Shown here: positions 4,337 through 17,626 of the stretch, one piece after another
Position numbering within the stretch: the first letter of the stretch is position 1
How the letters are laid out: the number at the start of each line of letters is the position of its first letter
From: a virus
Reading direction: 5' to 3' (one strand)
IMG/VR virus record: IMGVR_UViG_3300046467_000802
Coordinates: 1 to 27,479 of that record
Length of the DNA stretch: 27,479 nt
Translations under genes and position numbers: made by a program
The notes under the pieces: model-generated
Database searches by the model: none
What the model was told of the DNA's origin: nothing
The model's input: only the letters and a program-made list of their open reading frames with translations

Positions 4337-4366
4337 AAAAGGCGGCTTTCGGGTCGCCTTTTTTTT
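4337..4366. terminator. bidirectional rho-independent terminator between convergent genes
   Basis: AAAAGGCGGC (4337-4346) pairs with GTCGCCTTTT (4353-4362; one G-U) around a 6-nt loop, with T tracts on the plus side and A-rich sequence on the other, so it can act on both strands. It separates the fibre-like gene from the convergent Nudix gene, whose stop codon lies in the T tract. Confidence 0.9.
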
Positions 4367-4793
4367 AGGTTATTAAATCTAAAATAGTTTGTAACTTACC
4401 TTTAATTGCTTTATTGTTTAAAGTATTTCTTAATCCCCCGTGTAAATTTTTAGGCCAACACTCAAAATTACACCAACAATATCCCGAATGTTCACTGTTT
4501 AATTTAGGAATAAATTCTGATTCAATTGCAATAAGATATGTATGAAAGAAAAACTTTTGATCATTTGATGTAAACAATTCTAAAGGAATAACTTTTTTAA
4601 ATGCTGGAGTACTACTAACTTCCTCTTCTATTTCTCTTTTTAAACCGTCAAATGCTGATTCTGTATATCGCATTCTACCACCAACTAAACCCCATAATCC
4701 TTGAGTTTTCTCCGCAGTTCGTTGCAAAAATAAAAAACGTTTTGTTGACGTGCTATAAAATAGAGCACCGGAACAAATTATATTTTCTTTCAT
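4365..4793 (-). CDS. Nudix hydrolase
   Basis: A 142-residue protein with a nearly complete Nudix box, Gx5Ex7REUxEExGU. It has G39, E45 and R53-E54, then EEE (56-58) that supplies the Mg-binding glutamates. The usual Gly near the end of the box is Ser60. The upstream strand GLWGLVGGR is also typical. Nudix enzymes hydrolyse nucleoside diphosphates linked to another moiety; in phages they may act on (d)NTPs, Ap4A, NAD-type compounds or mRNA caps, and T4 has NudE. The substrate cannot be told here. A sigma70-type promoter ends 5 nt before the ATG and there is no Shine-Dalgarno. The gene lies downstream of gp15 on the same strand but has its own promoter, consistent with early expression. Confidence 0.9.
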   Translation of the reverse strand: MKENIICSGALFYSTSTKRFLFLQRTAEKTQGLWGLVGGRMRYTESAFDGLKREIEEEVSSTPAFKKVIPLELFTSNDQKFFFHTYLIAIESEFIPKLNSEHSGYCWCNFECWPKNLHGGLRNTLNNKAIKGKLQTILDLIT

Positions 4794-4798
4794 AATTT

Positions 4799-4827
4799 AT
4801 TATAACAATTTATTTGTTTTTTATCAA
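4799..4827 (-). promoter_or_regulatory. sigma70-type promoter of the Nudix gene, leaderless geometry
   Basis: On the minus strand TTGATA (4827-4822), 17 nt and TATAAT (4804-4799) form a near-consensus host promoter. Only 5 nt separate the -10 box from the ATG at 4793, so the start of transcription should fall on the start codon. The -35 box overlaps the stop codon of gp15 (4826-4824). Confidence 0.75.
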
Positions 4828-6281
4828 GGAGTTGTTGCGTCTACACTAGCATCATATCCAGTATTTCCGCCGCCATCTAATACAATACTCCAATTACCAG
4901 CAGTATAAATCCCTTCATAAGATTTTACCCACTCTGTTCCATTGAATCTATATTGTATTCCTGTATTAGTGTTTGTAACATAATGTTGCGTAGAATCAGG
5001 ATGTGAAGCATCAAATACTTTTAACCATCTTGCTCCAGCACTTAAATTTTCATTATACTCTATAATATCTCCTACATTAGCAATTAACGCCCCCCACGCA
5101 TCACTTACATATGTTGCTGTAGAATCTCCTACATCATTTATAATCATATATCTAGTACCATTTATAGGAGTTGATCCTGGATCATATGTAGAAGGATTAA
5201 TAATTTTGTCAACTGCTGACAATGTATTTGCAGGAATAGTATCCTGGTCAATGTTATATAATAAAATTGTATCGTTTAAAGTACTGGTAGCAATTGTTCC
5301 AATTATTTCTTTTCCATTTGGTTGCATTAATCTTACTTGTGATGTATCGTTTTGTACTTTTCCGTATTGATCTAATAATATTTTCCAGTTAACTGGTGGA
5401 CCAAAAGTTTCAAAAGGATCATAATTGCTTGGTGCGTTTGCTCCTGTATAGAATCCTGAAGCACCTGATGTAGTACTAGTACCTGTTGTTCCTAATAATC
5501 TTAATTGGTTTCCAGTAACTAATAATCCAAAATTATTTGGTGTAACATACGTTCTTGAAATCATAGAACCGTCTATTAATCCTGCTGTAATTCCGCCATC
5601 ATCATCATATATGCTCATAATAATTTTTTGTATAACCCCTAATTTTTTAACTTTAACAGGTGGTGATAACCATATTGGCATAGAAAAAGTTATTGTTGCA
5701 ATATCAATTTCTGTATCTGCACCTATAGGAATAGTTCTTGAACTAAACGTTGTTCCTGTTAGTTCAACATAACTTAAACTTGTCCAATCAATATAATTGT
5801 CTGTTTTTTGTATTTCAAAATCGGGGTTAAACAAATATAAAATTTGTTCCATTATTTGTAATTTTTGATCTGTATTTGTTGTCCAAATATCTGCTGTAAC
5901 TTCTAATCTAAAAGGTGACGGCATCATTTTTTCTATTGTATACCCTGCACCTAATTGATTATCATACTGTTCTGTATCTGTGTCGTAATTTCTTTCTTTT
6001 AAATGTTGTTTTTCAACATGATAAGGATTTTGCATTCTTTCCCTATCAAAATTTAATTCTCTAACATAAGCGGCAATTCTTGGAGCATATTGTAATGCGT
6101 TTTCACTATTATTTCTAATAATGTTTGCAACTTGTCTTGTTGGGTCTCCGTAAACAACCGGCACTGCTCTTAAAGTTACAGTATCATCTTTGCCTTTTCC
6201 TGTTTCTACAGAAAAATTACTCAAAATTCTTATAAATTGAGTTAAAAATTTTCTAATTTGCCCTTCGTAAAAGTGTAACAT
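4824..6281 (-). CDS. 15: tail terminator / sheath stabiliser gp15 with C-terminal extension
   Basis: A 485-residue protein. Residues 1-220 match the pattern of T4 gp15 (about 272 aa), which caps the finished tail and joins it to the neck. Visible matches are the start MLHFYEGQIRKFL with FIRILSNFSVET, the strand LRAVPVVYGD, the block RIAAYVRELNFD, MPSPFRLEVTADIWT followed by QKLQIMEQILYLFNPDF, and a final SMPIWLSPPVK strand. The C-terminal 260 residues are an addition. Residues 375-457 contain two or three copies of the motif (Y/F)R(F/Y)(N/D)GxxWVK (YRFNGTEWVKSYEG; IIEYNENLSAGARWLKVFD), a surface-type module also present in gp14 and the sheath. The gene follows gp14 with a 2-nt gap, as a gp14-gp15 operon read from the divergent promoter near 7460. 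Confidence 0.8.
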   Translation of the reverse strand: MLHFYEGQIRKFLTQFIRILSNFSVETGKGKDDTVTLRAVPVVYGDPTRQVANIIRNNSENALQYAPRIAAYVRELNFDRERMQNPYHVEKQHLKERNYDTDTEQYDNQLGAGYTIEKMMPSPFRLEVTADIWTTNTDQKLQIMEQILYLFNPDFEIQKTDNYIDWTSLSYVELTGTTFSSRTIPIGADTEIDIATITFSMPIWLSPPVKVKKLGVIQKIIMSIYDDDGGITAGLIDGSMISRTYVTPNNFGLLVTGNQLRLLGTTGTSTTSGASGFYTGANAPSNYDPFETFGPPVNWKILLDQYGKVQNDTSQVRLMQPNGKEIIGTIATSTLNDTILLYNIDQDTIPANTLSAVDKIINPSTYDPGSTPINGTRYMIINDVGDSTATYVSDAWGALIANVGDIIEYNENLSAGARWLKVFDASHPDSTQHYVTNTNTGIQYRFNGTEWVKSYEGIYTAGNWSIVLDGGGNTGYDASVDATTP

Positions 6282-6283
6282 TT

Positions 6284-7450
6284 TTAATTGTCAGCCTTTG
6301 GTTTTAATGCATCTGATAACGATTGTCGTTGCGTTACTGTTAATCCATTTATTGTACTTGTTGTCGAGTTATTAACAAAACTAGTTTTTTGTGTTGCTCG
6401 ACTATCTGTATTTGTAGTAGTTACTCTAACAGAGTCTTCAACCTTAATCCATCTGATTCCATCAAAACGGAATAATCTATTTGGTAGGTAATCTGTTCTT
6501 AAGAAATAATCACCGTTATCAACATTACTACTAGGAAACGTTATTCCAAATCCTGCAGGATGACCATTTGGTGCAACTCCATCTCCATCTAAATAGAAAC
6601 CATAATGCGATGCCGCTGGTGTATCTATTACTGCATTTATCTGTTTGTCTGAACTAATTCTTTCAGTTGTATTAACGTTATCAGTTCTAATATTTCCTCT
6701 TTCATCAATTGGAGCAACATAATACTGTTTATAATTAAATCCTGCTTTTGGAGAGTCTGACTCTGCCTGTGCAACAATTTGATCATTAATAGTTTTTTCT
6801 CTATTATATGTACTCATGTAACTTGCTAAAGAACCACTTGTAGTTGCATCTCCAATAATATCTCTAAACTCTTGTGAGTCAACCATTGTTTTTAATTTTA
6901 ATCTTAACAAGTGCGGCCACCAAGTTTGCGAGAATCCTTCTGCCGCTCTGTTTACATCTTCTACAACATAATATCTTTTTAATGCAATTGGTATACTTTC
7001 ATCTAATGAATAGTCTTCTTTCATATGTGGAAATTCAATAACATCTCCAGACATAGGTTTTCTACCTAATCTTTCAACAATATCATTCATGTGTACAGTT
7101 AAGAATATTGTATCATTTTGTAAAAACATACCAAATTGTGATAAATTAAAATCAATATCTTGTACATTGTATATTCCTCTTACAACGTACACGTCATCAG
7201 CGTATTTTCTATCTCTATTTTCTAAAAATAATAAGTCTTGTATTGTTCTTTCGTTTAGACTGTCACCTGAATATTGTGGTTGTGTCGGTGATGACTCACC
7301 ATCTTTTTGTGTAGTACCTTGATCGTAAGGTCCTAAGTATTTGTGGAAATGTAAATCAGTTCCACCCACAGTAAACAGCTCTTTAATGTTACGATCAAAG
7401 AACTTATAGTCGTTGCCTTTCTCTGGCTTGAAAATGGATAATCTTGGCAT
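6284..7450 (-). CDS. 14: neck protein gp14
   Basis: A 388-residue protein from ATG 7450. The frame extends 8 residues further, but that would overlap the promoter region. T4 gp14 (256 aa) forms the neck with gp13 and closes the head portal. Matching features are TIQDLLFLENRDRKYADDVYVVRG, then a 'FGMFLQNDTIFLTVHM' strand equivalent to T4's NFGMQVQDEVTLSI, then GDVIEFPH equivalent to GDLIYFP, and RYYVVEDVNRA. The C-terminal 120 residues are additional and contain NGDYFLRTD with LFRFDGIRWIKVED (residues 312-339), the same surface module as in gp15 and gp18. It is transcribed divergently from gp13 and is followed by gp15 2 nt downstream. The identification relies on pattern and neighbours. Confidence 0.75.
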   Translation of the reverse strand: MPRLSIFKPEKGNDYKFFDRNIKELFTVGGTDLHFHKYLGPYDQGTTQKDGESSPTQPQYSGDSLNERTIQDLLFLENRDRKYADDVYVVRGIYNVQDIDFNLSQFGMFLQNDTIFLTVHMNDIVERLGRKPMSGDVIEFPHMKEDYSLDESIPIALKRYYVVEDVNRAAEGFSQTWWPHLLRLKLKTMVDSQEFRDIIGDATTSGSLASYMSTYNREKTINDQIVAQAESDSPKAGFNYKQYYVAPIDERGNIRTDNVNTTERISSDKQINAVIDTPAASHYGFYLDGDGVAPNGHPAGFGITFPSSNVDNGDYFLRTDYLPNRLFRFDGIRWIKVEDSVRVTTTNTDSRATQKTSFVNNSTTSTINGLTVTQRQSLSDALKPKADN

Positions 7451-7458
7451 ATCACACA

Positions 7459-7466
7459 TATTTATT
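7459..7466 (-). promoter_or_regulatory. late promoter-like motif AATAAATA (gp14-gp15)
   Basis: On the minus strand AATAAATA matches 7 of 8 positions of the late consensus. It lies 8 nt before the gp14 start at 7450, without a Shine-Dalgarno. It forms a back-to-back divergent pair with the exact late promoter at 7481-7488, so gp13 and gp14-gp15 can be switched on together. Confidence 0.6.
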
Positions 7467-7480
7467 GATTGCACAACTAC

Positions 7481-9508: not shown

Positions 9509-12500
9509 ATGGCAACATTAACATCACCAGGAGTAGAAGTTTCAGTAATAAACGAAAGTTTTTACGTACCATCAGATGCGGGTACTACACCACTTTTTTT
9601 AGTAGCATCAGGACAAGACAAAACACCAGGTTCAGGATCAGGCACAGCTTCAGGAACAACAACTGCAACTGCTGATACTTGTTACTTGATTTCGTCTCAA
9701 AGAGAATTAACAGAAACATTTGGAGATCCAAAATTTTATTTAGATTCATCTTCTAATCCAATACATGGATGTGAATTAAATGAATGGGGTCTACAAGCGG
9801 CTTACTCATTTTTAGGACTTGCTAACAGAGCATACATTCTAAGAGTAAACACAAACTTAACAGATTTAGTTGGAAGTGCGACACCTCCAACAGCAGACCC
9901 AACAGATGGAACATACTGGTTTGACCTTGCATCAACTAGTTTTGGTATACATGAATGGGATAAAACAAATCAAAAATTTGTAGCAAAAACACCAACTATT
10001 AGTACAGCAGTTACTGACCTTGTAGGTAACAGTTCAACAGGTGCACCTAAAACATCAATAGGTTCACAAGGTGATTATTTAATTAATACAACACACGTTA
10101 GTAACAAGATTTATTACAAGTCTACTGAAAACGCTTGGGTACAACTTGGGTCAGAAGGATGGCACAAAGCAGTACCAGTAGTAAGTGTAGCAAGTGGAAC
10201 TACTGTATCTAGTGGTCAAACTATGGTCATTAATGGTGTGACAGTAACAGTTAGTGGTACAGCATTATCAAATGTTGCAACAGCAATTAACATAAATGCA
10301 GACGGCGGAGACGGCATAAGTTTTGCAGGTGTTTCGGCGGCAGTACATTCAATAACAGGTAACTTAGAAATATTCCATAATGGATTAGACCTAGGTGATT
10401 CGGCGGGTGGAAGAAATACAATTAATTTTCAAGAAGGTACAGGTATACTTGCTTCTTTAGGAATTACAGCAGGCACTTATAAAGGTGCTACATTCTTACA
10501 GGCGGCACACACTTCTAGACCTACTTGGAAAACAGCAGACGATAACAGACCAGGTGGTTCAGTTTGGTTGAAAACAAGCACAGCAAACAGTGGAGCAGAT
10601 ATTGTTGCAAAACTTTGGAGTGATTCAAGTGCAACTTGGACTACTGTAAGTTCTCCTTTATACTCAACTAACAATCAAGCAATTTATAAAATAGATCCAA
10701 CAAATGGTGGTACTTCAATTGCGGCTGGTACATTATACACACAATACAATATTACTGAGGATTCGGCAGGCGGTGCAAACTCAACTAACGCATTAGGTGA
10801 CTTACAATTATTTAGATACGTAGGTGGTACAACAGTTATTCAATCTAAAACAACTGCACCAAGTTTCACAGCAACTGAAACATTTACTTGTGCAGAAACA
10901 TTAAAAAATCAATCAGCATTAGACACTGCGAAACAAATAACTATGGTTTCTGGAGACGGTTCAACACTAGGTGATGCAGACGATTTCGTAACTGCATTTA
11001 CAGCGGCTGGCTTTACTAACTTAACAGCAGAAATTATAAGTTCAGGTGAATACAAAGGTGCAATTAAAATTACACATAAATTAGGTGGTGATTTCAGAAT
11101 GAACGATGGTGCAACATCAGCTGATCCAACAGCAACAGGTGGAACTCCACTTGCAGATGCAGGATTAAGTACTGGTCAAGCACACTCTTATGGTGGATAC
11201 ACTGCAAACAGTTCAACATTAATTGATAACTTATATGTTTCACCAGCAGGTGACTTAAATGACTCAACTTTGGGTAACGAAGTAATGGCTACTAACTGGA
11301 AACGTTTAAGTTACACAGCAAGTGCAAGTTCACCAAGTAATGAACCAACAGATGGTACATTATGGTATGATTCATCTACAGACATAGCAGATATTATGGC
11401 ACACAATGGTACAACTTGGGTAGGTTACGTTTCAGCATACTCATCTACAGATCCAGAAGGTCCTCAATTTAGTGCAACAGCACCAAATACACAATCAGAT
11501 GGAACACCACTTGTAACAAACGATTTATGGATTGATACAAGTGATTTAGAGAACTATCCAAAACTTTACAAATACAATACATCAGCAACATTAAGTTCGA
11601 CTAACACAGCAAACCAAGTAGCAGTTACAACATCAGGTGCGGCTTGGGAACTAACTGACAAAACAGATCAAACAACAGAAGATGGTATTATATTTGCAGA
11701 CGCTAGATGGCATACATCAGTAGAAAAAGCGGCTGATGGCAATTCTACTGCAGGTACGGCAAGTACAATTAAAGATTTATTAAGTGATAACTTCTTAGAT
11801 CCAGATTCACCTGATCCAACATTATATCCACAAGGTATTATGTTATGGAACACTAGACGTTCTGGTTACAATGTTAAAGAATACAAAAACAATCACGTAA
11901 CAACAACAAAATATCCAGGTTCAGGATCAAGTGGATTAGGTAACATTAGATACAATAGTAACGAATCAGTATCAACTTACTATCCAGACAGATGGGTTAT
12001 TAAATCATCTAACAATGCTGATGGTTCTGGTACTTTTGGAAGAAAAGCACAAAGACAAGTTGTTGTACAACAATTAAAATCTGAGATAGACACTAACCAA
12101 GCAATTAGAGAAGACCAAAGAGGTTTTAACGTTGTTGCTTGTCCTGGATATCCAGAAGTTATGCAAAATATGATTAACTTAAACACTGATCGAAATAGCA
12201 CAGCATTTATTGTTGGTGATACTCCAATGAGATTGGCAGGCACAGCAACAGCAATTACAGATTGGGCAAATAACTCAGCGGCGGCAACTGATAATGGTGA
12301 TGACGGTTTAGTAAGTTCAAGTGATTACTTGGGCGTATTTTATCCATCAGGATTAACTACTGACAATTCAGGAACATCAATTGTAGTTCCAGCATCACAC
12401 ATGATGATGAGAACTTTAGCAAATAATGACAACTTGGCATATCCATGGTTTGCACCAGCAGGTACAAGACGTGGTGTTGTAGACAATGCAACAGCAGTTG

Positions 12501-12985
12501 GTTATATTGACGCAAGTGAAGGCGAATTTAAAACAATATCTGTTACTGAATCTATAAGAGATTCAATGCATACAGTCAAAGTTAATCCAATTACTTTCTT
12601 CTCAGGAGCAGGAATTGTTAACTTTGGTAACTTAACTATGACATCGTCAAGTTCAGCATTAGACAGAATAAACGTTTCAAGATTAACAGTATATCTAAGA
12701 AATCAATTAGATGCTATTGCTAAACCATTTATATTCGAACCAAATGATGAATTAACAAGAAATGAGATCAAACAAGCAATTGAATCATTCTGTTTAGAAT
12801 TAGTTGGACAAAGAGCATTATATGACTTCCTAGTAGTTTGTGACGAAACTAACAACACGTCTACTAGAATAGACAGAAATGAACTTTATGTAGATATAGC
12901 AATTGAACCTGTGAAATCAGTTGAATTTATTTACATACCATTAAGAATTAAAAACACAGGGGAAATAGCAAAATTAGGGAACTAA
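9509..12985 (+). CDS. 18: tail sheath protein gp18 with giant insertion
   Basis: A 1158-residue protein; T4 gp18 has 659 and cyanophage versions are somewhat larger. The N-terminus (SPGVEVSVINES...) and C-terminus (GRKAQRQVVVQQLKSEID, FIVGDTP, DNLAYPWFAPAGTRRG, RLTVYLRNQLDAIAKPFIFEPND, YIPLRIKNT) are unmistakable contractile-sheath sequence. The fold is split by an insertion of roughly residues 120-750. It holds five 'W-D...W' surface-type modules (about 126-162, 183-219, 335-382, 608-641, 661-716; e.g. PTDGTYWFDLAS and PTDGTLWYDSST). Residues about 226-325 resemble a flagellin/hook 'IN' motif (VTVTVSGTALSNVATAINI...LASLGITAG), and 458-534 may be a second, degenerate copy. The insertion would project from the tail surface. 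The sheath contracts around the gp19 tube to drive DNA injection. Confidence 0.9.
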   Translation: MATLTSPGVEVSVINESFYVPSDAGTTPLFLVASGQDKTPGSGSGTASGTTTATADTCYLISSQRELTETFGDPKFYLDSSSNPIHGCELNEWGLQAAYSFLGLANRAYILRVNTNLTDLVGSATPPTADPTDGTYWFDLASTSFGIHEWDKTNQKFVAKTPTISTAVTDLVGNSSTGAPKTSIGSQGDYLINTTHVSNKIYYKSTENAWVQLGSEGWHKAVPVVSVASGTTVSSGQTMVINGVTVTVSGTALSNVATAININADGGDGISFAGVSAAVHSITGNLEIFHNGLDLGDSAGGRNTINFQEGTGILASLGITAGTYKGATFLQAAHTSRPTWKTADDNRPGGSVWLKTSTANSGADIVAKLWSDSSATWTTVSSPLYSTNNQAIYKIDPTNGGTSIAAGTLYTQYNITEDSAGGANSTNALGDLQLFRYVGGTTVIQSKTTAPSFTATETFTCAETLKNQSALDTAKQITMVSGDGSTLGDADDFVTAFTAAGFTNLTAEIISSGEYKGAIKITHKLGGDFRMNDGATSADPTATGGTPLADAGLSTGQAHSYGGYTANSSTLIDNLYVSPAGDLNDSTLGNEVMATNWKRLSYTASASSPSNEPTDGTLWYDSSTDIADIMAHNGTTWVGYVSAYSSTDPEGPQFSATAPNTQSDGTPLVTNDLWIDTSDLENYPKLYKYNTSATLSSTNTANQVAVTTSGAAWELTDKTDQTTEDGIIFADARWHTSVEKAADGNSTAGTASTIKDLLSDNFLDPDSPDPTLYPQGIMLWNTRRSGYNVKEYKNNHVTTTKYPGSGSSGLGNIRYNSNESVSTYYPDRWVIKSSNNADGSGTFGRKAQRQVVVQQLKSEIDTNQAIREDQRGFNVVACPGYPEVMQNMINLNTDRNSTAFIVGDTPMRLAGTATAITDWANNSAAATDNGDDGLVSSSDYLGVFYPSGLTTDNSGTSIVVPASHMMMRTLANNDNLAYPWFAPAGTRRGVVDNATAVGYIDASEGEFKTISVTESIRDSMHTVKVNPITFFSGAGIVNFGNLTMTSSSSALDRINVSRLTVYLRNQLDAIAKPFIFEPNDELTRNEIKQAIESFCLELVGQRALYDFLVVCDETNNTSTRIDRNELYVDIAIEPVKSVEFIYIPLRIKNTGEIAKLGN

Positions 12986-13012: not shown

Positions 13013-13639
13013 ATGGCAATATCAACATTATCAAAATTTACAGTACCTTTAGCAAACGATCAAAGTTCAGCATCACAAGGCTTGTTGATGCCAAAACTAC
13101 AATATCGTTTTAGATGTATCCTAGAAAATTTTGGAGTATCAACACCAAGATCAGAAGTTACAAAACAAGTAATGGATGTTACGAGACCAAACTTATCTTT
13201 TGATAAAGTAACACTAGACGTTTACAACTCAAAAGTATTTGTAGCAGGTAAACACACTTGGGAACCAATTACAATCACATTAAGAGATGACGTTAACAAC
13301 TCAGTTACTAAACTAGTTGGTGAACAAATTCAAAAACAATTTGATTTCTTTGAACAAGCAAGTGCGGCATCTGGTATTGACTATAAATTTACAACTAGAA
13401 TTGAAATGCTAGATGGTGGTAACGGAGCAAGTGCACCAAATGTATTAGAAACATTTGAATTATATGGTGCATACATTGAATCTGTTAACTACAATTCACT
13501 AGCATATAACACATCAGACCCAGCAACAATTACATTATCAATAAGTTATGACAACTGTGTACAAACACCTACAGGAACAGGTATTGGTACAGCGGTAGCA
13601 AGAACAATTGGTACACTATCTACTGGCGGTGGACAATAA
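13013..13639 (+). CDS. 19: tail tube protein gp19
   Basis: A 208-residue protein; T4 gp19 has 163. It lies 27 nt after the sheath gene with Shine-Dalgarno AGGAGAG. The pattern is that of tail-tube subunits: LMPKLQYRFRCILENFG, the strand KQVMDVTRPNLSFDKVTLDVYNSKVFVAGKHTW, EPITITLRDDVNNSV, helix VGEQIQKQFDFFEQ, and the last strands FELYGAYIESVNYN and TITLSISYDNCVQ. Hexameric rings of gp19 stack into the inner tube inside the sheath. The extra length is mainly a Gly/Thr-rich C-terminal tail (TGTGIGTAVARTIGTLSTGGGQ region). It is followed by a terminator, so gp18-gp19 form one late operon. Confidence 0.92.
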   Translation: MAISTLSKFTVPLANDQSSASQGLLMPKLQYRFRCILENFGVSTPRSEVTKQVMDVTRPNLSFDKVTLDVYNSKVFVAGKHTWEPITITLRDDVNNSVTKLVGEQIQKQFDFFEQASAASGIDYKFTTRIEMLDGGNGASAPNVLETFELYGAYIESVNYNSLAYNTSDPATITLSISYDNCVQTPTGTGIGTAVARTIGTLSTGGGQ

Positions 13640-13711: not shown

Positions 13712-15103
13712 ATGCCAAAGATTAATGACTTTTTAAGAGGGTTCCAAGATGGTCTTCCAGGGATGAAAGACTATCGTCACGCAAATAGATTATTCACCGA
13801 CGACGATTTTAAATTATTACCTAAACAGAAATTTTTATTTTACTGTGTTATACGTACAAATGAAGATGTGTCAATGGACGATCTTACTAGAGTTGAAAGA
13901 ATGCATTTGAATATGTTATGCAAAACAGTTGAGTTACCTCGATTTGGTATGAATGTTCAAGAAAAAATTCAATATAACAAAAAAGTGTATCCAATGACAC
14001 GTATACAATATGAACCAGTAAACATAACTTTCCATGATGATCATGCTGATACTGTAACTGCATTTTGGAAAAAATATTACGAACATTATGTTGCTGATGC
14101 TCATCTAGTTGGCGATACTGCAACAAGAATAGCAACAAAGGATTCATACTTTGATGATCCTGATCAAAAACAAACTGGAACAACTAAATGGGGTTTAGAT
14201 ACTCCTGTGCAAAGAAGAAAGCCATATTTAGACAATATAGAAATTTTTATGTTTCACAGACAAAGATTTACGTCAATGATGTTGATTAATCCTGTTATTG
14301 GATCGTTTAATCATGATACTTTAGACGTTGCAGATGGTACTGGCACAGTATCAAGTACAATGCAAGTATTATACGAATCAGTAGTATATGCGTCTGGTGT
14401 AATTAAAAATAGTAAAGAAAAAATACATGGGTTTACAGAACTTCATTATGATCACGAACCGTCACCTTTAAGTGTACTAGGTGGTGGAACAAATAGTATA
14501 TTTGGACCTGGCGGTGTAGTTGATGGTGTAGGGTCAGTTATTAGAAATATTGGCAATAAAAATATTTTAGGTGCAATTTTAAGTGCATCTAATACATATA
14601 ACAATGCTAAAAAAATTAAAAAGGCCGGAGTTAAAGAAGAATTAAAAGGTCTTGGTAAAAAAGGTATTCAAGAAATTGGCAAACATCGTTCATTGGCTTC
14701 AAGTGGCGTTGGACAATTTGCTATAGGTGCAATGGCTCTTGGTGTGGGAAGAACGTTGGCTACAGAATCAGGCAAGACTACATCAAACAATCCAAGAATA
14801 AACAACGCAACACCCGATAGTGTAAATTATCTAACAGCAGATGAATCTTATAATTTAGTTATTTCTAATAGCACACTTAAAAATGCAATTGCCGCTGGTA
14901 TATATTATAAAGATATTGGTTCTAGAAAAGGTTTAACAATAGCAGAAAGTGATGTAGAATATACTGGATCTACTGCTACGGCAAAAACTGTATACAGAAA
15001 TAAAGCAATCACAGATATTCGTAAACTTGTAACAGAAGGATATATAAAAATTAGTAGAGACGCACAAAACGTATCTATTGTAACTGAGAAGGCAAATCTA
15101 TAA
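13712..15103 (+). CDS. baseplate-tail tube protein, gp54/gp48-like
   Basis: A 463-residue protein. Residues about 35-260 have the tail-tube-like fold pattern of the gp19 paralogues that start the tube on the baseplate: KFLFYCVIRTN, LNMLCKTVELPRFGMNVQEKIQYNKKVYPMTRIQYEPVNITFHDDHADTVTAFWKKYYEHY, then YLDNIEIFMFHRQRFTSMMLINPVIGSF and the 'YASGVIKN...GFTELHYDHEPSPL' ending. T4 has two such proteins, gp54 (tube initiator, 320 aa) and gp48 (tube cap, 364 aa); from sequence alone I cannot tell which this is. The C-terminal 200 residues are Gly-rich and partly hydrophobic (GVGQFAIGAMALGVG) and then helical. The gene overlaps the next by one base (TAATG) in a short assembly operon with gp4. Confidence 0.75.
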   Translation: MPKINDFLRGFQDGLPGMKDYRHANRLFTDDDFKLLPKQKFLFYCVIRTNEDVSMDDLTRVERMHLNMLCKTVELPRFGMNVQEKIQYNKKVYPMTRIQYEPVNITFHDDHADTVTAFWKKYYEHYVADAHLVGDTATRIATKDSYFDDPDQKQTGTTKWGLDTPVQRRKPYLDNIEIFMFHRQRFTSMMLINPVIGSFNHDTLDVADGTGTVSSTMQVLYESVVYASGVIKNSKEKIHGFTELHYDHEPSPLSVLGGGTNSIFGPGGVVDGVGSVIRNIGNKNILGAILSASNTYNNAKKIKKAGVKEELKGLGKKGIQEIGKHRSLASSGVGQFAIGAMALGVGRTLATESGKTTSNNPRINNATPDSVNYLTADESYNLVISNSTLKNAIAAGIYYKDIGSRKGLTIAESDVEYTGSTATAKTVYRNKAITDIRKLVTEGYIKISRDAQNVSIVTEKANL

Positions 15104-15927: not shown

Positions 15928-16476
15928 ATGACAAAGAAATTAGAAGACATACTTAATTTACCAAACGTCAAAGAAGCATTTAAACAAGTAGACGCTAAAG
16001 AAAAAACAAAAAACTCTAAAGGAATCAATGGTGTATCTACTAAAAATTTAGATCCGCAAACTGCAAAAAATTTAGAAAAAACATACGCTGAATTTGATAA
16101 AATATCTGCTTCTTTACCACAAGTAAAAGGACTTGGAGACCTTTCAGATTTAGAATTAGATAAATTAGCCGTTGAAGCAGAAGAGTCTTATAAAAACTTA
16201 ATGGACTTGGGTATGAATGTCGATTCACGTTACTCTGGACGTATTTTTGAAGTTGCAAGTACTATGTTACGTAATGCCATAGATGCTAAAGGATCTAAAA
16301 TAGATAAAAAACTTAAAATGGTTGAACTTCAACTTAAAAAATTAAAAATCGATAAAGACGGCAAAGATGGTGGGCCTATAGAAGAAAGTGATGGTTTTGT
16401 AATTTCAGATCGTAATGAATTAATGAAAAAACTATTAAAATCTAATGCCACAAAGTCTAAGGATGCCGACAGTTAA
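15928..16476 (+). CDS. 16: terminase small subunit, gp16-like
   Basis: A 182-residue protein; T4 gp16 has 164. The central helical hairpin (DLSDLELDKLAVEAEESYKNLMDLGMNVDSRYSGRIFEVASTMLRNAIDAKGSKIDKKLKMVELQLKKLKI) matches the gp16 oligomerising coiled-coil core, including the 'R-x-x-E-V-x-S-T-M-x-x-N' segment. The C-terminus has GFVISDRNELMKKLL, corresponding to the T4 'VFVGSTAELM' tail. The N-terminal 60 residues are Lys-rich and probably flexible. The small subunit recognises concatemeric DNA and stimulates the gp17 motor. Its last 32 bases overlap the start of the radical SAM gene. Unlike in T4, gp17 is not adjacent but lies about 3.4 kb downstream. Confidence 0.75.
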   Translation: MTKKLEDILNLPNVKEAFKQVDAKEKTKNSKGINGVSTKNLDPQTAKNLEKTYAEFDKISASLPQVKGLGDLSDLELDKLAVEAEESYKNLMDLGMNVDSRYSGRIFEVASTMLRNAIDAKGSKIDKKLKMVELQLKKLKIDKDGKDGGPIEESDGFVISDRNELMKKLLKSNATKSKDADS

Positions 16477-17626
16477 ACAAGATACTTTTTGTCCCAATCC
16501 CTTTACTCAGTTACAAGTAGGTAAAGAAAAGTGTGGGCCGTGTCCTTATATTCATAACACTTGGGATTTAAATGGAACAATAAAAGAAAAATGGCTATCA
16601 GACGAACTAATAGAATTTAGAAGAAAAAAACTAAACGGTGAAAGAGACCCAATATGTATTAATTGTTACAGAGAAGAAGACGCTGGAAAATTAAGTCTTA
16701 GACAAAGAAAACTTAATTGGCAAAAAGGCTCTGATCCTACAGGACAAAAACTTAAAGAAAATATATTTTCTAAATTTATTGCAAATAAAACTTGGGAAAA
16801 ATTTCCTAGAATTGTAACAATAGAACCAAGTAATACTTGTAATCTAGCCTGTGTAACTTGCAATGGATCCTTATCCTCTAAATGGAACAGTGAACTTAAC
16901 AAAATGCCTATGATTGAACATAAATCAGTTAGTAAAAATTGGGGTATAAGTGAAGAAACATATCAAGAAATTGTTGATAATTCTGAACATTTACAAAGAA
17001 TAGAACTATTTGGTGGAGAGCCTTTTTATGAAAAGAAAAATAAAGAATTATTAATTAACAAAATTATTGAAAGGGGAACTGCAAAAAATATAACTCTTTA
17101 CTTTAATACAAATGGTACCATATATGATGAGAAATTTATTAAAAAAATTGAGGATAACTTTAAAAAAATTGAAATAAGAATTTCCATAGATGGAATTAAT
17201 GAACAATTTGAATACATTAGATATGGTGCTAACTTTAAAAATGTTATGGAAAACACTAAAAAGTTTTGTAATATGTCAAATGGCGATGTTGAAGTTATTT
17301 GTACAGTATCTCCTTACAACGTTTTATACCTAGAGGAGTACGATAACTTCTTTAAAGAAAATAATTTACCTGTTTTTTTTAATTTAACAAAACATCCGAA
17401 CGAAATGTTGCTGTTTAATATACCCGATGCTGTTAAACCAATGATAAACTTACCTGAAAAGTTTAAAGATATACAATCATATATTAACAATAAACCATGT
17501 AATTTAAACGATTGGCACAAATTTGTACGTTATACCAAACTTATAGACAAACACCGTAATTTAAACGTTAAAGATATATTTCCTCGTTTTTATAGCCTAA
17601 TTAAGGCATTTGGATTTGAACAATAA
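16445..17626 (+). CDS. radical SAM protein with extra N-terminal cysteines
   Basis: A 393-residue protein (387 if it starts at ATG 16463, which has AAGG just upstream). C132-x3-C136-x2-C139 in TCNLACVTC is the radical SAM cluster motif, followed by the GGEP motif (ELFGGEPFYEK) and a SAM-binding strand with FNTNGT. Before the core, residues 16-74 hold five more cysteines (C16, C30-x2-C33, C71-x2-C74), a twitch/SPASM-like auxiliary cluster placed N-terminally. Proteins of this layout are frequent in marine phages but their substrate is unknown to me. It overlaps gp16 by 32 bases, so it is translationally tied to the terminase small subunit, an unusual partner. The composition is close to that of its neighbours. 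Confidence 0.88.
   Translation: MPQSLRMPTVKQDTFCPNPFTQLQVGKEKCGPCPYIHNTWDLNGTIKEKWLSDELIEFRRKKLNGERDPICINCYREEDAGKLSLRQRKLNWQKGSDPTGQKLKENIFSKFIANKTWEKFPRIVTIEPSNTCNLACVTCNGSLSSKWNSELNKMPMIEHKSVSKNWGISEETYQEIVDNSEHLQRIELFGGEPFYEKKNKELLINKIIERGTAKNITLYFNTNGTIYDEKFIKKIEDNFKKIEIRISIDGINEQFEYIRYGANFKNVMENTKKFCNMSNGDVEVICTVSPYNVLYLEEYDNFFKENNLPVFFNLTKHPNEMLLFNIPDAVKPMINLPEKFKDIQSYINNKPCNLNDWHKFVRYTKLIDKHRNLNVKDIFPRFYSLIKAFGFEQ

Follow-up and report, generated by a model that had tools for sequence, protein, structure and literature searches.

The window, meaning the whole stretch of DNA analysed here, is a virus sequence of 27,479 bases in which a single open frame, without stops, encodes a contractile phage tail sheath protein of the gp18 type (Table 1). 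The protein has 1158 residues, the length given in an earlier note on this DNA, against 659 in T4 gp18. It matches the PHROG tail sheath family 10581 over residues 1–1151 (E 1e-209) and carries Phage_sheath_1C of Pfam at its C-terminus (residues 1047–1147; 60.9 bits against a cut-off of 26.9). Aligned with T4-like sheaths by hhalign, residues 2–115 correspond to T4 1–85 and residues 845–1151 to T4 344–648. Moreover, the AlphaFold model of the full-length protein (pLDDT 85.3, pTM 0.72) matches the sheath of a T4-like phage with a Z-score of 34.5 over 339 residues at 2.6 A, spanning model residues 24–1138. The N- and C-terminal parts of the sheath are therefore intact, as had been claimed, and in the model the core fold is built from both chain ends. 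Matches in a PDB sequence-profile search were confined to this core.

The gene lies among other virion genes. The tail tube gene that follows it has a second paralogue directly behind it, 463 aa long (13712–15103, plus strand), whose first half matches tail tube families and leaves about 230 extra residues. On the strand opposite to the sheath are found a virion structural protein (phrog_11591; 6284–7474), a 485 aa protein with a family match to the gp15-like tail sheath stabilizer (4824–6281) and, adjoining the stabilizer gene, a MutT/NUDIX hydrolase (4365–4793). A Radical SAM domain protein is encoded amid the virion genes at 16445–17626 on the plus strand. Several relatives have an opposite-strand ORF of 369–406 aa upstream of the sheath, probably the counterpart of the phrog_11591 gene; near its C-terminus a weak stretch resembles the W-modules described below (E 0.005–0.04).

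Table 1. Features of the sheath gene and of the adjoining tube gene, with residue numbers of the sheath protein and positions in the window.
Feature	Residues	Position	Strand	Basis
Tail sheath protein gene (gp18 homologue), 1158 aa		9509..12985	+	ORF, PHROG, Pfam, structure match
N-terminal sheath core (T4 gp18 1–85)	1–115	9509..9853	+	hhalign to T4-like sheaths; structure match from model residue 24
Non-core middle region, replacing T4 gp18 domains I and II (T4 86–343)	116–844	9854..12040	+	hhalign and T4 domain limits (PMC3004832)
W-module 1, PTDGTYWFD	126–163 (profile match 122–166)	9884..9997	+	hhalign, pooled profile
W-module 2, degenerate	179–217	10043..10159	+	weak support
IN-like domain 1 (IN1), missing as a block in many relatives	221–328	10169..10492	+	hhalign, relatives including L014
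W-module 3	337–384 (profile match 333–393)	10517..10660	+	hhalign, pooled profile
W-module 4	about 397–440 (profile match 396–448)	10697..10828	+	hhalign, pooled profile
IN-like domain 2 (IN2), structural match to FliD D2-D3	440–594	10826..11290	+	hhalign, structure match
W-module 5, PTDGTLWYD	600–645 (profile match 600–648)	11306..11443	+	hhalign, pooled profile
W-module 6, NDLWIDTSDLENYPKLY	652–732	11462..11704	+	hhalign, pooled profile
Variable-length arm returning to core	736–844	11714..12040	+	alignment of relatives, hhalign
C-terminal sheath core (T4 gp18 344–648 and end)	845–1158	12041..12985	+	Pfam, PDB profile, hhalign
Tail tube protein (gp19-like), 208 aa, directly downstream of sheath		13013..13639	+	family match

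The earlier note had described an insertion of about 630 residues, between residues 120 and 750. The extra region is real and is not part of a normal sheath core, which here comprises residues 1–115 and 845–1158, but both its extent and its description need correction. Residues 736–844 are also non-core, so that the region runs on past residue 750 to 844. Since 729 residues of this sheath stand in the place of 258 residues of T4 gp18, a replacement of domains I and II is a more exact description than an insertion. In T4 gp18, domain I comprises residues 98–188 and domain II residues 88–97 and 189–345; a protease-resistant fragment of the two domains is solution-exposed, and domain I protrudes, is not in contact with other subunits, and is where the baseplate and the retracted long fibres bind (PMC3004832). 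By analogy with T4, we infer that the middle region would form the outward layer of the tail.

The middle region was divided into pieces using an alignment of 48 relatives, and the pieces, compared with one another by hhalign, fell into two repeat types. The first comprises five or six modules of about 40 residues in this sheath (W-modules). W-modules 1, 3, 4, 5 and 6 match one another through several hhalign pairs, and a pooled profile, trained on family members including this sheath, recovered five modules, the number that the earlier note had given for those with a P-T-D-G-T motif. At a domain E below 1, this profile found nothing in 200 shuffled inserts, in T4 or in any of four cyanophage sheaths, and it matched the isolates Atu_ph07, Phosso, PAC2, SCTP-2, Vibrio 2.275.O, RaK2 and XaC1. 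A tight form of the motif occurs four times in the insert, against a mean of 0.015 and a maximum of 1 in 5000 shuffles. No solved structure was matched by the W-modules in the model of residues 329–736, for which the structural list falls mainly on IN2.

The second repeat type corresponds to what had been described as one or two segments like the flagellin/hook IN motif. Two of these are present, and hhalign gives their homology a probability of 96.5, against 0.1–1.1 for pairs of a W-module with an IN-like domain. Pfam returned nothing above cut-off for the insert pieces of this sheath, Flagellin_IN (PF07196) included; their sub-threshold matches are chance-like (for example, an immune evasion family at E 0.035) and were set aside. 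The Flagellin_IN cut-off of 22.7 bits is passed by the relative L014 (22.8) and by Atu_ph07 (26.7), and 9 of the 48 family members match this family at E ≤ 0.1. A pooled IN profile had E. coli FliD 113–184 as its top match, at 10.1 bits and barely above shuffles (8.6). Residues 329–736 were also modelled alone (pLDDT 76.7, pTM 0.64), and all 11 structural matches of this model are flagellar, ten of them FliD or filament-cap proteins and one FliC D2/D3. The best reaches a Z-score of 6.7 over 105 residues at 3.0 A and about 15% identity, a score in the range possible from shared arrangement alone. The FliD matches fall on model residues 111–270, that is, sheath residues 439–598, or IN2. Foldseek with the same model against the PDB gave nothing significant, with antibodies and T4 gp15 at E > 0.1.

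The Pfam passes in relatives, the all-flagellar structural list and the FliD profile match, combined, make it likely, if not proven, that the IN-like domains are homologous to flagellar outer domains. We regard it as rather unlikely that they are unrelated to flagellar proteins and merely share a common small alpha/beta arrangement. Such a coincidence would fit a Z-score below 8, a Foldseek search without significance and the position of this sheath's own domains under the Pfam cut-off; it sits poorly with the agreement of Pfam and structure on both the family and the part of FliD (profile 113–184, structure 103–225) and with a structural list free of any unrelated protein.

Domains were counted in 144 related proteins in which the two ends of the core could be placed. 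These carry three to six W-modules and zero to three IN-like domains, the one exception being CM1 (L009), whose middle of 285 residues contains no W-module and no IN-like domain. Among the distant members listed, the middle measures 367–459 residues where W-modules occur without IN (exceptions being L136 with 496 and Vibrio 2.275.O with 566), 454–601 with one IN, 626–721 with two and 779 with three. The largest sheath among the relatives found, L162:286-3918 on the plus strand, has 1211 aa and three IN-like domains. A tree of the core only, quickly made and with some long branches, requires nine or more changes in IN number and six or more in IN1, counts that cannot separate gain from loss. 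For example, a one-IN group (L114, L116, L124 and L118) is nested within the well-supported set of 13 to which this sheath belongs. The W-modules are a near-constant scaffold and the IN-like domains optional plug-ins, and the repeated change of IN1 indicates that sheaths are made in nature without it.

Purifying selection acts on the middle region. By a simple counting method applied to 228 close pairs, dN/dS was 0.19–0.27 in the middle region and 0.12–0.14 in the core among 76 close relatives, a set drawn from the best 80 of at least 564 relatives and therefore narrowed in spread. On these values, which give no sign of hypervariability, we rejected a hypervariable host-range domain. Within the outer region of the close relatives, conservation is highest in W5-W6, with a mean identity of 0.84 against 0.87–0.88 in the core, and lowest in IN1.

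Relatives were found on at least 564 contigs in a scan of viral contigs, so the lineage is common among viral metagenome contigs, and the nearest isolates are jumbo phages. W-modules are common to Atu_ph07, Phosso, PA5oct/PAC2, SCTP-2 and RaK2. The region is no oddity of a single phage: a widespread lineage and several jumbo phages normally have such a sheath, and that of Atu_ph07 had already been modelled (PMC9230969). Probably it is an ordinary contractile sheath protein of large phages related to T4, from a lineage that is widespread, mostly uncultured and, as the relatives together with a remark in the earlier note suggest, marine. It is not general to marine T4-like phages: the pelagiphage HTVC008M (667 aa frame) and four cyanophages (669–754 aa) have sheaths without the middle region. 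Large sheaths occur in other marine phages, such as S-TIM5 (1137 aa) and S-CBWM1 (1492 aa). An assembly chimera or frame error fusing the sheath gene to another gene found no support and is hardly conceivable, given one stop-free frame and the same architecture in isolated phages and many independent contigs (73–81% identity in the best 80 of at least 564).

Most likely the middle region is an accessory layer, facing outward, on a normal contractile core. In the arrangement that we propose, residues 1–115 and 845–1158 would carry out assembly and contraction, and T4 domains I and II would be replaced by a ladder of W-modules, roughly 620 residues long and bearing two IN domains of flagellar type, followed by the arm back to the core. 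The W-modules would serve as the constant scaffold on which the IN-like domains sit as optional plug-ins, and the whole would form an outer layer round the tail with one copy per sheath subunit. The likeliest task of this layer would be an accessory one at the surface, foremost a weak, many-fold contact with the host surface or with surrounding polymers. On balance we favour this reading of a T4-like core whose outer domain has given way to a W-module/IN ladder that would make weak, many-fold contact, and an adhesin role is plausible. Weak adhesion is ranked first because the domains that vary are dispensable surface domains of flagellar type. Above the Pfam cut-off, the insert pieces of this sheath matched neither a sugar-binding family nor any known adhesin family. 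We know of no experiment that assigns a role to the middle region in any family member.

Two other tasks were weighed against adhesion. The outer modules might act as cement, contacting neighbouring subunits and rings and stabilising a tail that is long or under stress, while taking no part in host binding. Purifying selection throughout, the conservation of W5-W6 close to that of the core and a near-constant number of W-modules beside a varying number of IN-like domains all suit this idea, and stabilisation is among the roles proposed for additional sheath domains by Evseev et al. (PMC9230969). We nevertheless consider it the less probable explanation, for repeated loss or gain of IN1 is hard to reconcile with needed contacts and T4 domain I makes none with other subunits (PMC3004832). 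It seems improbable to us that the modules serve as a dock for further virion components, for example tail fibres in their retracted state or the hair-like whiskers that some phages with related sheaths carry. Such docking has a precedent in T4 domain I, to which the retracted long fibres and the baseplate bind (PMC3004832), and tail whiskers are seen on CBB (PMC5259590), a RaK2-like phage whose sheath matches this one. The whisker proteins of CBB have not been identified, however (PMC5259590), the hairs of phAPEC6 occur at just three ring positions along the sheath and not at every subunit (PMC7247149), and the whiskers of Atu_ph07 are mostly on the capsid (PMC6102473). Since related phages bear their whiskers on the capsid or at a small number of rings, we rejected whiskers as the main explanation.

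Oversized sheaths of giant phages were already known. Evseev et al. (2022) modelled 112 sheaths and described a conserved core made from both chain ends, with extra domains, mostly Ig-like, away from the tube; they suggest adhesion, stability or appendage formation as functions of these domains (PMC9230969). Their list includes Atu_ph07 (1086 aa, five or more domains), SCTP-2 (955 aa), RaK2 (888 aa) and sheaths of 1248 and 1283 aa from metagenome phages. The present sheath fits their multi-domain type 3 in having at least three domains, with the extras between the N- and C-terminal core parts and, by analogy with T4, probably away from the tube (PMC9230969). In the accessible part of that paper we found no description of IN domains or W-modules, and relative to the literature found, it is the modular make-up that is newly spelled out. 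Size, put down there mainly to "additional, often Ig-like, domains" (PMC9230969), is here resolved into a near-constant W-module ladder and zero to three plug-ins, whose number largely sets it. The natural single-domain deletions offer a ready experiment on the role of the outer sheath layer.

The likeness to flagellar domains gives a lead that can be tested. Evseev et al. also describe flagellin, like the sheath, as a tube protein with a core from both chain ends (PMC9230969). A literature search returned no report joining a phage sheath with flagellin IN, a weak negative from an imprecise search. We put forward only tentatively, as something that may well hold, the fuller statement that, in a large marine lineage, the tail sheaths expose genuine homologues of the outer domains of the flagellar cap and of flagellin as interchangeable plug-ins on the W scaffold, repeatedly gained and lost. 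If true, one kind of surface domain would be common to two unrelated tubular machines, perhaps serving a similar kind of contact or mimicry in both.

Compared with known systems, this sheath has the core fold and outer-domain location in common with T4 gp18 (659 aa), which differs in its 258-residue domain I and II part, where no W-modules or IN domains were found. The IN-like domains resemble FliD D2-D3 and flagellin D2/D3 in sequence (in some members) and in fold, but they are carried by a phage sheath and the likeness is distant (Z 6.7). The family PHROG 10581 (PA5oct, PAC2 and Paride; SCTP-2; RaK2-like phages being more distant) matches as a profile over nearly the whole protein, its isolates being assigned as a group and not singly; PAC2, SCTP-2 and RaK2 also have W-modules, and the isolates differ in a shorter middle with one IN domain or none detected. 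Closest in design are the sheaths of Atu_ph07, a phage of Agrobacterium (1086 aa), and of Phosso, a phage of the symbiont Sinorhizobium (1091 aa). Both have this core and, in the middle region, W-modules with a pair of IN-like domains, at about 45% identity across 61–63% of the length. Relative to this sheath, Atu_ph07 has a 92-residue insert at position 174 and lacks the block 440–594 in register, which places its two IN domains elsewhere in the ladder.
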